Shown here: positions 7,232-19,120 of the stretch, one piece after another
How positions within the stretch are numbered: the first letter of the stretch is position 1
Layout of the letters: each line of letters opens with the position of its first letter
NCBI GenBank assembly: GCA_023250955.1
Contig: JAHEZQ010000037.1
Location: forward strand, 1-36,541
Length of the DNA: 36,541 nucleotides
Direction: 5' to 3'
From: Melioribacter sp.
Lineage (GTDB): Bacteria; Bacteroidota; Ignavibacteria; Ignavibacteriales; Melioribacteraceae
Position numbers and translations under genes: made by a program
The notes under the pieces: model-generated
The model's database searches: none
The model's input: the letters and a program-made list of their open reading frames with translations, nothing else
Told to the model about the DNA's origin: nothing

Positions 7232-9199
7232 ATGAAAAAAATATCCATTCTATTTCTTCTTTTTATTATTTCAGCATCTATAAATTCACAAACAAAATAT
7301 CTAATCTATTTCAAAGATAAAGGCGTCTCTCCAAATAATTCTTTACAGAAATCATCAGCACTTTTCAAGTTGGCTGAAAAAGAATTATCACAAAGAGCAA
7401 TTGAAAGAAGAAAACAAGTTATGGGTGAGGATAATTATATCACCTATGAAGATATTCCTCTAAATGAAAATTATGTTAATCAAATCGAAAACCTCGGAAT
7501 CAAAATTGAGAACAAGTTGAAATGGTTTAATGCTGTTTCATCATACTTAACTGATAGTCAATTAAATATTATTAAGAAGCTTTCATTTGTAGAAAGAGTA
7601 AATCCGGTTGCAATCTTAAAGGGAATTAAAGATCTAAGTTTTCAATCAACTGAAAATCAAGAAAAAACCGGTTCATTAAAAAAAACAACCTCTCTTGACT
7701 ACGGTGGATCATTCACACAAAATGACCGTTCCGATATACCAGCTGTTCATGATTTGGGAATTACAGGAACCGGTGTTTACATAGGAATTCTAGATGACGG
7801 ATTTTCTCCAAGTACATATAATTCATTAAAAACGAGAGTTGTGGTTCGAGATTCGGATTATGTTCATCACCTTCCTCATGTTTCAAATCAGAGTGGTGGT
7901 CATGGATCGAGCGTGTTCTGTCTTATGGCGGGTTATGATCCCGGAAATGCAATTGGTCCTGCTTATAATGCAAAATTCTTTTTAGCAGAAACTGAAAATG
8001 ATGCAAGCGAAACCCACGTTGAAGAAGATAATTACGCGGCCGCTCTTCAAGATATGGAAAGTGCCGGAGTTGATATTACAAGCAGTTCACTCGGTTATAC
8101 ATTATTTGATGCAGGACAAACTTCCTATACTTATGCTAATATGAATGGCACAACTACTATTGTTGCCCAAGCAGCAAATGTTGCTTTTCAAAGAGGCGTA
8201 ACAAGTTTTACTGCGGCTGGGAATTATAATAATGATGGCTGGTTGATTATCAATTCACCGGCAGATGCATTGAATATAATTTCGGTAGGAGCTGTAACTT
8301 CTGGAAATATTTTGGCTTCATTCAGTTTGCCAGGACCTACTGCTGATGGAAGAATCAAACCGGAAGTGGTTGCTATGGGGCAGGATAATTATATTGCATT
8401 AACTAATGGGGTTAGTTATGGTACTGGAAGTGGAACTTCATTTGCAACACCGATTGCGGCAGGAATCGCTGCATTGCTCAAATCATGCTGGACTCATCTA
8501 ACAAATGTCCAAATAAGAAAAATATTTCTTGAGTGCGGAGATAATTCCGGTAATCCAACTAATGGTAGAGGCTGGGGATTAATTTCTGCAAAGAGAGTTA
8601 TTTCTTACCCAAATCTAAGTGCGGTTGATAGTGTTTACAGAGTACTCAATAAAATTTTCATTAATAGTAACGGTGTAAATCCTTCGACAGTAATGTTATA
8701 TTATAGAATTGGTAGCGGCTCTTATCAGAGTACTGCCATGAATTACGATGGAACCTTAAAATATAATTTTACGCTTCCTTCTTCATCTAACGGTACAACA
8801 GTTGAGTTTTATTTTACTTATAAAACAAGTTCCGGAGGATCGGTTCAAGAACCAACAAGCAGCACATATAAATTTTCTTACGGCAGTAACGATATTCTAA
8901 CATCAGTGAATGAGAGAAATGAAATCCCAGTACAGTTTGATCTCTCACAGAACTATCCTAATCCGTTTAATCCAAGTACGGTAATTAGTTACAGGATATC
9001 AATTATTAGTAAAGTCACCTTAAAAGTTTATGATCTCCTTGGTAGAGAAGTATCTACGCTTGTTAATGAAGAACAACAACCGGGTGTTTATAATTCTCAA
9101 TTCTCAATTCTCAACTCTCAATTATCAAGCGGTGTTTATTTTTATAGATTACGAGCGGGAGATTTTTCTGAAACCAAGAAAATGATTTTGATTAAATAA
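7232..9199 (+). CDS. Secreted subtilisin-like serine protease (S8) with T9SS type A sorting domain
   Basis: A 655-residue protein. I prefer ATG 7232 over 7214: GAGG lies five bases upstream and the protein then begins with a clean signal peptide (MKKISILFLLFIISASINSQ). Residues about 25-130 form an inhibitor/propeptide-like region and about 165-460 the S8 domain. The catalytic triad is Asp188 (GILDDG), His224 (GGHGSS) and Ser403 (GTSFATP), with Asn331 as the oxyanion residue. From about residue 565 there is a type IX sorting domain with SQNYPNPFNPST, VYDLLGREVSTLVN and SSGVYFYRL, so it should be exported through the T9SS and anchored or released at the surface. The linker at 621-632 is encoded by a 7-base tandem repeat. 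Substrate unknown. Confidence 0.93.
   Translation: MKKISILFLLFIISASINSQTKYLIYFKDKGVSPNNSLQKSSALFKLAEKELSQRAIERRKQVMGEDNYITYEDIPLNENYVNQIENLGIKIENKLKWFNAVSSYLTDSQLNIIKKLSFVERVNPVAILKGIKDLSFQSTENQEKTGSLKKTTSLDYGGSFTQNDRSDIPAVHDLGITGTGVYIGILDDGFSPSTYNSLKTRVVVRDSDYVHHLPHVSNQSGGHGSSVFCLMAGYDPGNAIGPAYNAKFFLAETENDASETHVEEDNYAAALQDMESAGVDITSSSLGYTLFDAGQTSYTYANMNGTTTIVAQAANVAFQRGVTSFTAAGNYNNDGWLIINSPADALNIISVGAVTSGNILASFSLPGPTADGRIKPEVVAMGQDNYIALTNGVSYGTGSGTSFATPIAAGIAALLKSCWTHLTNVQIRKIFLECGDNSGNPTNGRGWGLISAKRVISYPNLSAVDSVYRVLNKIFINSNGVNPSTVMLYYRIGSGSYQSTAMNYDGTLKYNFTLPSSSNGTTVEFYFTYKTSSGGSVQEPTSSTYKFSYGSNDILTSVNERNEIPVQFDLSQNYPNPFNPSTVISYRISIISKVTLKVYDLLGREVSTLVNEEQQPGVYNSQFSILNSQLSSGVYFYRLRAGDFSETKKMILIK
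9094..9128 (+). repeat. Heptanucleotide tandem repeat (TTCTCAA x5) in coding sequence
   Basis: Five consecutive 7-base units: TTCTCAA three times (9094-9114), then CTCTCAA (9115-9121) and TTATCAA (9122-9128), each of the last two with one change. It encodes NSQFSIL-NSQL inside the T9SS sorting domain. Since 7 is not a multiple of 3, gain or loss of one unit would shift the frame. Confidence 0.9.
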
Positions 9200-18019: not shown

Positions 18020-18065
18020 ATAATTTCCACTGCCTGGAGCGCATGGGGGAGGCTGGATTATTTTT
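18020..18065 (+). terminator. Probable terminator after the DMT-like gene
   Basis: ATAAT (18020-18024), CCA (18027-18029) and GCCT (18032-18035) pair with AGGC, TGG and ATTAT (18050-18061) across two small bulges, with a G-rich loop. A TTTT run follows. It overlaps the last codon and stop of the convergent ubiE gene. The stem is imperfect, so confidence is moderate. Confidence 0.45.
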
Positions 18066-18756
18066 CTGCTACGACAATTTGTACTAGACCAAATGTCAGT
18101 GAGTATTTTTTAACTCTGGAAAAACCACACTCATTAAAAAGTTTAACCAGATTAACCTTTTTATCAAACTCGCCAACCGATTCAGGAAGATAAGTATAAG
18201 CTTCTTTGTCTTTGGAAATTAGTCTTCCGATAAATGGTAAAACTTTATTGAAGTAAAAGAGATAAAAATTTCTTACAAGAAGATTTGAAGGAAGGCGAAA
18301 TTCGAGAACTGTAACTTTCCCATTTGCGGAAAGGACATGATGAAAAGTTTTAAATGATTGAGATATATCGTAAAAATTACGCACACCAAACGCCACAGTA
18401 ATATTTGTGAATGATTCATTCTTAAATGGTAAGTGCTCTGCTACTGTTTCAACTACTTTGCCGTTAATCCAATCAACTTTTTTGTTGAAGAGTAAAAGCA
18501 TATTAAATGAAAGATCAGCGCCAAAGATTTTTTCAACACCAAATTTTTTAGCTGTGATTGCAAAATCACCTGTACCGCAAGCAATATCCAGTAATTTCGA
18601 TTCGGATGACATCCCGGAAAGTTTGATCGCTTTTTTACGCCAATAAAGATCTACTCCTGCACTTAGAAAATGATTTAAAAAATCATATCTATGAGAAATG
18701 GAATCAAAAATCCTTCTAACCTGAGTTTTTTTATTTGTGCCTTCCATCTTTGCCAA
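18058..18756 (-). CDS. ubiE: Demethylmenaquinone methyltransferase (UbiE/MenG)
   Basis: A 232-residue SAM-dependent methyltransferase for the last step of menaquinone (or ubiquinone) synthesis. The N-terminus has the family segment VRRIFDSISHRYDFLNHFLSAGVDLYWR, motif I is LLDIACGTGDFA and the post-I/II region is TVAFGVRNFYDI. The C-terminus ends in GLVQIVVAEK. In this group the product is most likely menaquinone. The start may be TTG 18756 (as given) or ATG 18747 three codons later; neither has a convincing Shine-Dalgarno. It is divergent from the Cys-rich small gene across 40 bases. Confidence 0.93.
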   Translation of the reverse strand: MAKMEGTNKKTQVRRIFDSISHRYDFLNHFLSAGVDLYWRKKAIKLSGMSSESKLLDIACGTGDFAITAKKFGVEKIFGADLSFNMLLLFNKKVDWINGKVVETVAEHLPFKNESFTNITVAFGVRNFYDISQSFKTFHHVLSANGKVTVLEFRLPSNLLVRNFYLFYFNKVLPFIGRLISKDKEAYTYLPESVGEFDKKVNLVKLFNECGFSRVKKYSLTFGLVQIVVAEK

Positions 18757-18796
18757 CTAATTGGTAATTTTTCTTTTGTATTAACAAGGCAAATTT

Positions 18797-19120
18797 ATGG
18801 ATAAATATTTTAAAGCATTAAAACAAAATGTATGTTCGATATGTGTCGATTCCAGCGAAAAAGGTAACTGCACATTAAATGAAAAGGAATCATGTGCGGT
18901 TGAATTATTTCTACCTCAAATTATTGCTGTAATCCATAATACTGATTCTGATAATATGCAGGAGATTCATCAAAAATTAAAAGACACAGTTTGCGTTGAA
19001 TGCCGTGCACAAGAAAACGGTAACTGTTATTTACGTGAAGATGCAAATTGTTCATTGGATAGATATTTTTGGTCAATAATTGAAACAATCCAAAAAGTTG
19101 ATGCAGGTTTAATCTATTGA
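18797..19120 (+). CDS. Small duplicated eight-cysteine protein, function unknown
   Basis: A 107-residue cytosolic protein built from two copies of one unit. Copy 1 has Cys13, Cys16, Cys25 and Cys33 (CSIC...GNC...ESC); copy 2 has Cys66, Cys69, Cys77 and Cys85 (CVEC...GNC...ANC). The four Cys recur with an offset of 52-53 residues, and each copy is followed by a hydrophobic helix (AVELFLPQIIAVI; SLDRYFWSIIETI). All eight cysteines of the protein are in these motifs. Two metal sites, either zinc or [4Fe-4S], are the natural reading. It is not a standard 2[4Fe-4S] ferredoxin, because CxxCxxCxxxC is absent. It is divergent from ubiE, whose promoter region it shares. I do not recognise a named family. 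Confidence 0.85.
   Translation: MDKYFKALKQNVCSICVDSSEKGNCTLNEKESCAVELFLPQIIAVIHNTDSDNMQEIHQKLKDTVCVECRAQENGNCYLREDANCSLDRYFWSIIETIQKVDAGLIY

Follow-up and report, generated by a model that had tools for sequence, protein, structure and literature searches.

The window analyzed here is a stretch of 36,541 nucleotides from a Melioribacter genome (contig JAHEZQ010000037.1). On its forward strand, an open reading frame running from ATG to stop at positions 18797 to 19120 encodes a protein of 107 amino acids, here called C8, whose assignment is based on the reading of the frame and on conservation across a family. The protein is made up of two units. Unit 1 (residues 1 to 49; 18797 to 18943, forward strand; alignment A3) carries Cys 13, 16, 25, and 33 in the pattern C-x2-C-x8-C-x7-C, followed by a predicted helix at residues 34 to 48. 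Unit 2 (residues 54 to 107; 18956 to 19117, forward strand; alignment A4) carries Cys 66, 69, 77, and 85 in the pattern C-x2-C-x7-C-x7-C, followed by the residues SLDRY and a predicted helix at residues 88 to 102. Matching cysteines of the two units are 53, 53, 52, and 52 residues apart. The chain ends 22 residues past the last cysteine, and leucine-rich variant repeats are absent.

On the reverse strand at 18058 to 18756 lies a divergent open reading frame that resembles ubiE/menG-type methyltransferases, a name given from reading the sequence by eye; this neighbor is kept in three of the family's lineages (f1, f3, and f13). An initial annotation had described two four-cysteine patterns, 52 to 53 residues apart, in a gene divergent from ubiE, and this description was borne out. 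The 40-base space between the two frames (18757 to 18796) holds an AT-rich stretch, TTGGTAATTTTT, which was also seen by eye approximately 30 bases upstream of C8 in several relatives and is perhaps the promoter of the gene. An FNR or CRP site upstream of C8 was considered and rejected, as the consensus with up to one change was found in none of the 34 upstream stretches searched.

Extent of the family and conservation of the cysteines

C8 is a real, conserved family and not a chance pattern, since relatives were found at E ≤ 0.01 in 91 of the 294 sampled genomes of its own class, Ignavibacteria, and the full set of eight cysteines is present in 91 of 97 distinct sequences. A profile search likewise placed C8 in 91 of 288 genomes of the class, with two marginal matches (G155 and G188) and one fragment (G223). 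In a sample of the whole phylum, class members included, 34 of 395 genomes carried the gene, and all 34 belong to the class. A single-sequence scan of genome contigs, which reaches close relatives, recovered six loci from records titled Melioribacter, Ignavibacteriales, or Bacteroidetes. Among plasmids, neither the window protein nor the L040 protein gave a match as query, and the C-terminal half of the L043 protein gave four rows only, at chance level at an E value of 10. Viral contigs yielded no C8 relative with the L040 query.

The initial annotation had proposed two four-cysteine sites and had noted that homologues without conserved cysteines would speak against them. The cysteines proved to be conserved. 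All eight were present in 56 of the 57 rows first gathered, and in each of the six exceptions among the 97 distinct sequences the loss is limited to a single unit. In alignment A2, which comprises 48 of the 57 rows at 21 to 91% identity to the window protein (the nine left out include the degenerate row), the invariant columns are exactly the eight cysteines and no others. Alignment A5, with its 90 rows, shows six of these cysteines as invariant columns and the remaining two as nearly invariant ones. Four of the exceptions affect unit 2: the second copies in L039 and L050 keep unit 1 intact and have lost all four unit-2 cysteines, and the paralogs in L088 and L092 keep unit 1 and have lost three of the four. 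Two others affect unit 1: L095 has lost two of its cysteines, and L110, which is cut short at its N-terminal end, lacks three. Among the 97 sequences, loss never extends to both units, a pattern consistent with two separate four-cysteine sites.

The unit-2-degraded paralogs (L039:3144-3470, L050:1900-2226, L088:7505-7834, and L092:7559-7888) all belong to lineage f5, and their four losses may represent few events. A tree of 90 C8 sequences was built from few columns, and 33 of its 87 inner branches are left open; no argument here rests on it. Tandem C8 pairs lie behind the genes for subunits of 2-oxoacid:ferredoxin oxidoreductase (KOR) at L041:5950-6676 and L048:5900-6597, and their second copies form long branches in this tree.

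Internal duplication and predicted structure

Judging from their sequences, the two halves of C8 are the products of an ancient duplication. First, alignment of the N-terminal with the C-terminal half covered 49 columns with an hhalign probability of 99.2 and an E value of 3.4e-19, which refers to that single comparison. Second, a profile of the C-terminal half also detected the N-terminal half of the same proteins. When this profile was run against 146 genomes, 54 were matched. In 52 of them the match covered the two units of a C8 protein, whereas G595 and G613 gave weak partial matches; G638, one of the 52, had an extra weak partial match elsewhere. Proteins with a single unit, about which the initial annotation had asked, were not clearly found among the 146 genomes, yet one unit is degraded in five paralogs and the L110 protein is truncated.

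Structure prediction with AlphaFold2, using either 48 or 90 sequences, placed helices at residues 2 to 11, 34 to 48, 54 to 70 or 71, and 88 to 102, so that both models contain the helix that the initial annotation had placed after each cysteine unit. Mean pLDDT was 66.9 with 48 sequences and 68.3 with 90. Confidence was lowest in the cysteine loops, and residues 17 to 32 fell below 50 in both models, which counts against reading C8 as an electron carrier (see below); low confidence would also be expected of a predicted loop that folds around a cofactor, and it proves nothing either way. Searches with these low-confidence models were uninformative. The best Foldseek E value was 2.5, which is not usable, and every row of a VIA search stayed below Z 6 (best Z 5.8, rmsd 3.0, 73 residues aligned). 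The eighth VIA row, chain C of 4-hydroxybenzoyl-CoA reductase (1rm6_C; Z 4.4, rmsd 2.9, 71 residues aligned), is too weak to use.

Relation to known metal-binding proteins

Searches of Pfam, NCBIfam, and PDB sequences gave no significant match to C8 at the thresholds used. The earlier impression that the protein matches no named fold therefore holds at these thresholds, beside a sub-threshold resemblance to the LRV_FeS domain; a clear hit to an established domain family would have told against it, and the three collections gave none. In 48 members, searched whole and as halves, Fer4 and HIPIP stayed unmatched at E ≤ 0.1, and no DNA-binding domain of Pfam was matched in C8 members. A literature search found no paper naming the family. 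The family and its arrangement appear to be new; a small cysteine-ligated metal protein for electron transfer is a known kind of thing.

LRV_FeS (PF05484; PDB 1lrv) is a domain with a [4Fe-4S] cluster that occurs in leucine-rich repeat variant proteins linked to nif. Its profile reached sub-threshold scores in four of 48 whole C8 proteins, five of 48 C-terminal halves, and one of 48 N-terminal halves; the best score was 17.6 bits, for the C-terminal half of L043, against a cut-off of 27, and the window protein gave no row at E ≤ 0.1. The number of members matched is weak evidence, as Cathelicidins, an unlikely family, reached nearly as many at the same level (four of 48 whole proteins and four of 48 C-terminal halves). 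Across the four cysteines, the alignments of L043, L046, and L054 to LRV_FeS contain no gaps. In the C-terminal half of L043, replacing Cys 1 or Cys 2 with Ser, or RY with AA, abolished the match, a result that concerns a sub-threshold match in one sequence; replacing Cys 3 or Cys 4 with Ser reduced the score to 13.4 or 12.1 bits, respectively, and two control changes gave 17.6 and 16.2 bits.

For comparison with genuine members, two LRV-like probes were composed; they scored 55.8 and 70.5 bits against LRV_FeS. One of them retrieved 1lrv from the PDB together with three plasmid proteins, from Rhizobium, Methylococcus, and Paraburkholderia, all of which adjoin nif genes and two of which are annotated as 4Fe4S-binding. 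A search of seven plasmid records for LRV_FeS proteins gave one weak match, under the cut-off. Like C8, the LRV sequences have a C-x2-C pair, a third cysteine often preceded by G-x, a fourth cysteine, and a charged stretch that looks helical. There are three differences. First, the LRV loops read C-x2-C-x10-12-C-x5-C, whereas those of C8 are mostly C-x2-C-x7-8-C-x7-C. Second, DRY follows the last cysteine in only one of four LRV sequences, whereas C8 of the window has SLDRY there. Third, LRV proteins have one unit fused to repeats, whereas C8 has two units and nothing else. Alignment of C8 with four real LRV sequences by hhalign was not significant (probability 3.7 for the C-terminal half, 0.2 for the N-terminal half, and 1.6 for the whole protein). 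At the level of sequence, C8 would thus resemble LRV_FeS in motif, with scores under the family cut-off, the fusion to repeats missing, and kinship unsupported by profile comparison. No homology is claimed because of the different loop lengths, the rarity of DRY, and this lack of significance.

Compared to two-cluster bacterial ferredoxins, including those that form a subunit of 2-oxoacid oxidoreductases, C8 has approximately the same size, duplicated sites, and genes in oxidoreductase operons. The classical ferredoxin motif is C-x2-C-x2-C-x3-C. It is missing in C8, which in addition is unmatched by Fer4 and has a secondary structure predicted to be all-helical. A second point of comparison is the high-potential iron-sulfur protein (HiPIP) Iro, whose [4Fe-4S] ligands are given as Cys24, 27, 36, and 49 (PMC10654088). 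Iro and unit 1 of C8 are alike in belonging to small proteins, in having four cysteines for each cluster (a putative one in C8), and in starting with C-x2-C-x8-C; the fourth cysteine follows after 12 residues in Iro and after seven in C8, which also has two units per protein. In a study of Aquifex enzymes (PMC10052474), the epsilon subunits are described as ferredoxin-like with two [4Fe-4S] sites. The same study describes Aq_1163, a small uncharacterized protein that was captured with the Aquifex 2-oxoglutarate oxidoreductase and whose gene is adjacent, to which C8 can be likened by description only.

The eight cysteines would suit two Zn(Cys)4 sites, and C8 could be a zinc protein in which two structural sites build a small adaptor, or a regulator, that acts on genes of anaerobic metabolism. 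Sub-threshold matches point in this direction: RecR_ZnF was reached by five of 48 N-terminal halves (best E 0.0068), as many members as LRV_FeS among C-terminal halves, and zn-ribbon_14 scored a weak 11.6 bits in L043 against a cut-off of 34.9; no zinc ribbon or zinc finger profile gave anything over its cut-off. Zinc ribbons usually have paired CxxC knuckles, whereas each C8 unit has just one CxxC. In addition, a regulator would fit poorly with the lack of a Pfam DNA-binding domain, and the neighbors of C8 in other lineages are mostly iron-sulfur and heme redox genes. A zinc protein is considered unlikely. In the authors' judgment, the metal is likely to be iron-sulfur rather than zinc, given the motif resemblance to LRV_FeS, the Iro-like start, and the redox gene context.

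Genomic context

The menG-like neighbor was found in lineages f1, f3, and f13, at 36 of the 36 loci L001 to L036 (some genomes occurring twice) and at L056 and L120 to L122, and many of these loci have PAP2-like and ksgA-like open reading frames beyond it. The arrangement occurs at none of the 19 loci L037 to L055. The initial annotation had taken the menaquinone gene as a hint of a redox or metal-related role. The direction of this hint was supported by oxidoreductase and cytochrome neighbors elsewhere; the menG neighbor itself is confined to three lineages.

In nine of the 11 other lineages (f4, f5, f10, f12, f14, f19, f20, f22, and f31), redox genes lie near C8, though not at every locus. 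They encode 2-oxoacid:ferredoxin oxidoreductases, Rieske/cytochrome b proteins, cytochromes c, CcmF, and HypAB; some neighbors were named by Pfam and others by sequence clusters joined to those or by eye. KOR genes lie upstream of C8 at L041, L042, L043, and L048. The gene for the long form of pyruvate:ferredoxin oxidoreductase (PFOR) adjoins C8 or shares its locus at L039, L045, L049, L050, L054, L087, L090, L105, and L106. At L051, L091, L094, L097, and L108, C8 has Rieske or cytochrome b genes on its flanks. Genes for multiheme cytochromes together with CcmF are near C8 at L046, L099, L100, and L102 to L104, CcmF alone at L052, L055, and L123 to L126, cytochrome c554-type genes at L044 and L047, and a cytochrome c gene at L107. 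At L038 (4946-6303), C8 is followed directly by HypA and HypB-type genes (Pfam HypA and cobW). With this exception, Hyp maturation genes were rejected as recurrent neighbors, as Pfam identified the candidates as CcmF, ferredoxin, alanine dehydrogenase, and acetyl-CoA hydrolase/transferase.

Same-strand near neighbors were collected from 36 of the 38 loci that remained after 17 of 55 had been dropped as near-duplicates. Of the 92 Pfam families found in these 116 genes, the 25 commonest mostly belong to redox or 2-oxoacid/CoA metabolism; they include cytochrome c7, radical SAM, POR, Fer4, cytochrome c, CcmF, Rieske, and cytochrome b, as well as acetyl-CoA hydrolase/transferase and hemerythrin. 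The 104 genes further out at the same loci are mixed: response regulators and sigma-54 activators occur there alongside cytochrome c7, CcmF, and Fer4, and the recurrence of the latter three means that this control lies partly inside the same clusters.

Linkage was also counted for POR_N in 24 C8-bearing genomes that were chosen by hand, some known to be linked and some not, so that both the choice and shared ancestry inflate the figures. POR_N lay within 3, 5, and 10 kb of 12, 16, and 19 of 39 C8 copies, compared to 0.29, 0.48, and 0.96 expected under uniform placement. At 10 kb, 15 of the 24 genomes were linked, from f5, f14, f19, f20, and f31, and four f1/f13 genomes were unlinked; POR_N occurs in all 24, which makes its mere presence uninformative. 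Across the class, the EKR domain of the long PFOR was found in 72 of 89 C8 genomes and 124 of 199 others (p 0.0017, kinship ignored); the two marginal C8 matches were left out of this count, and both 288-genome sets were taken as identical.

Several observations count against a carrier that serves these enzymes. The EKR domain is missing from 17 of the 89 C8-bearing genomes. In the window genome, C8 lies on a different contig from any POR_N gene. No redox neighbor was recognized at four f18 loci or at L053 (f12), and at L117 (8188-9579, f7) the gene downstream of C8 encodes a protein of 464 residues without a Pfam match at 1e-6. This f7 protein had been considered as a radical SAM enzyme, which was rejected because no Pfam family was matched at that threshold. 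At L109 (f12), the sole redox sign near C8 is an open reading frame at 8129-8857 with a heme-type CxxCH, seen by eye.

Proposed function

Because the genes of its relatives often sit among electron-transfer genes, C8 is probably best read as a cytoplasmic carrier with two iron-sulfur clusters, a reading to which a probability of roughly 0.5 is given. In such a protein, two tandem units, each composed of a helix, a four-cysteine loop, and a second helix, would form a small metalloprotein in what is probably the cytoplasm, and each unit would most likely hold one iron-sulfur cluster, probably [4Fe-4S]. C8 would then act as a low-molecular-weight electron carrier, or as an electron-accepting side partner, of oxygen-sensitive anaerobic oxidoreductases. 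Its partners may be pyruvate- and 2-oxoacid:ferredoxin oxidoreductases; elsewhere in the family, they may be Rieske/cytochrome b, cytochrome c, and hydrogenase systems. In the lineage of the window, a lone C8 gene beside menG may serve the same redox pool without sharing an operon with its partner. A more specific proposal, which is tentative and has the odds somewhat against it, is that C8 represents an undescribed two-cluster carrier, neither ferredoxin nor HiPIP, in which stand-alone LRV-like [4Fe-4S] units stand in tandem on a four-helix frame and, throughout the class, have been adapted within each lineage to operons for oxidoreductases, cytochromes, and hydrogenases.

Since CcmF, HypA, and HypB are maturation proteins, the strongest functional rival is that C8 is not an electron carrier but a maturation or repair factor that serves oxygen-sensitive enzymes by donating clusters or as a metallochaperone. 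CcmF overlaps the start of C8 at L124 (f10), the HypA and HypB-type genes at L038 follow it directly, and MoaA-like and HemN-like open reading frames, named by eye, lie near some loci; furthermore, some paralogs retain a single complete site. However, the close partners of C8 include many catalytic genes (PFOR, KOR, Rieske, and cytochrome b), and the retention of all four ligands in both sites would be more usual for stably bound clusters. A role in maturation seems unlikely.

Alternatively, C8 could sense redox state or oxygen and tune neighboring enzymes through oxidation of a cluster or of its thiols. Hemerythrin-type genes of cluster 27 stand beside C8 at L042, L088, L092, and L110, Pfam Hemerythrin accounts for four of the 116 near neighbors, and sigma-54 activator domains occur in five of the 104 genes further out. 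Against this, C8 proteins of the class showed neither a fused output domain nor a DNA-binding domain, all 34 upstream stretches lack the FNR/CRP consensus, and two complete conserved sites would hardly be needed. This possibility is regarded as very unlikely.

Returning to the carrier with two clusters, paralogs of one genome occupy different redox surroundings in G204, G287, and G200, which fits carriers matched to their partners. L042 already carries what by eye is a ferredoxin-like KOR subunit, so C8 is not simply a replacement for it. In M. roseus, the PFOR alpha subunit is among the proteins suppressed under aerobic conditions, according to the available part of the report (PMC5492636), and C8 is unnamed in that part.

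If this reading is true, C8 would be a new family of small redox proteins, widespread in the class, that joins anaerobic carbon metabolism, and it would explain a recurrent unnamed gene of many genomes. It is generally assumed that ferredoxins serve as carriers for pyruvate and 2-oxoacid oxidoreductases, and C8 would stand beside them.

A further small open reading frame (cluster 17) lies next to C8 at six f5 loci (L037, L054, L087, L090, L098, and L106), downstream of it in four. At L037:5977-6237 and L054:6352-6612, it encodes 87 residues each.
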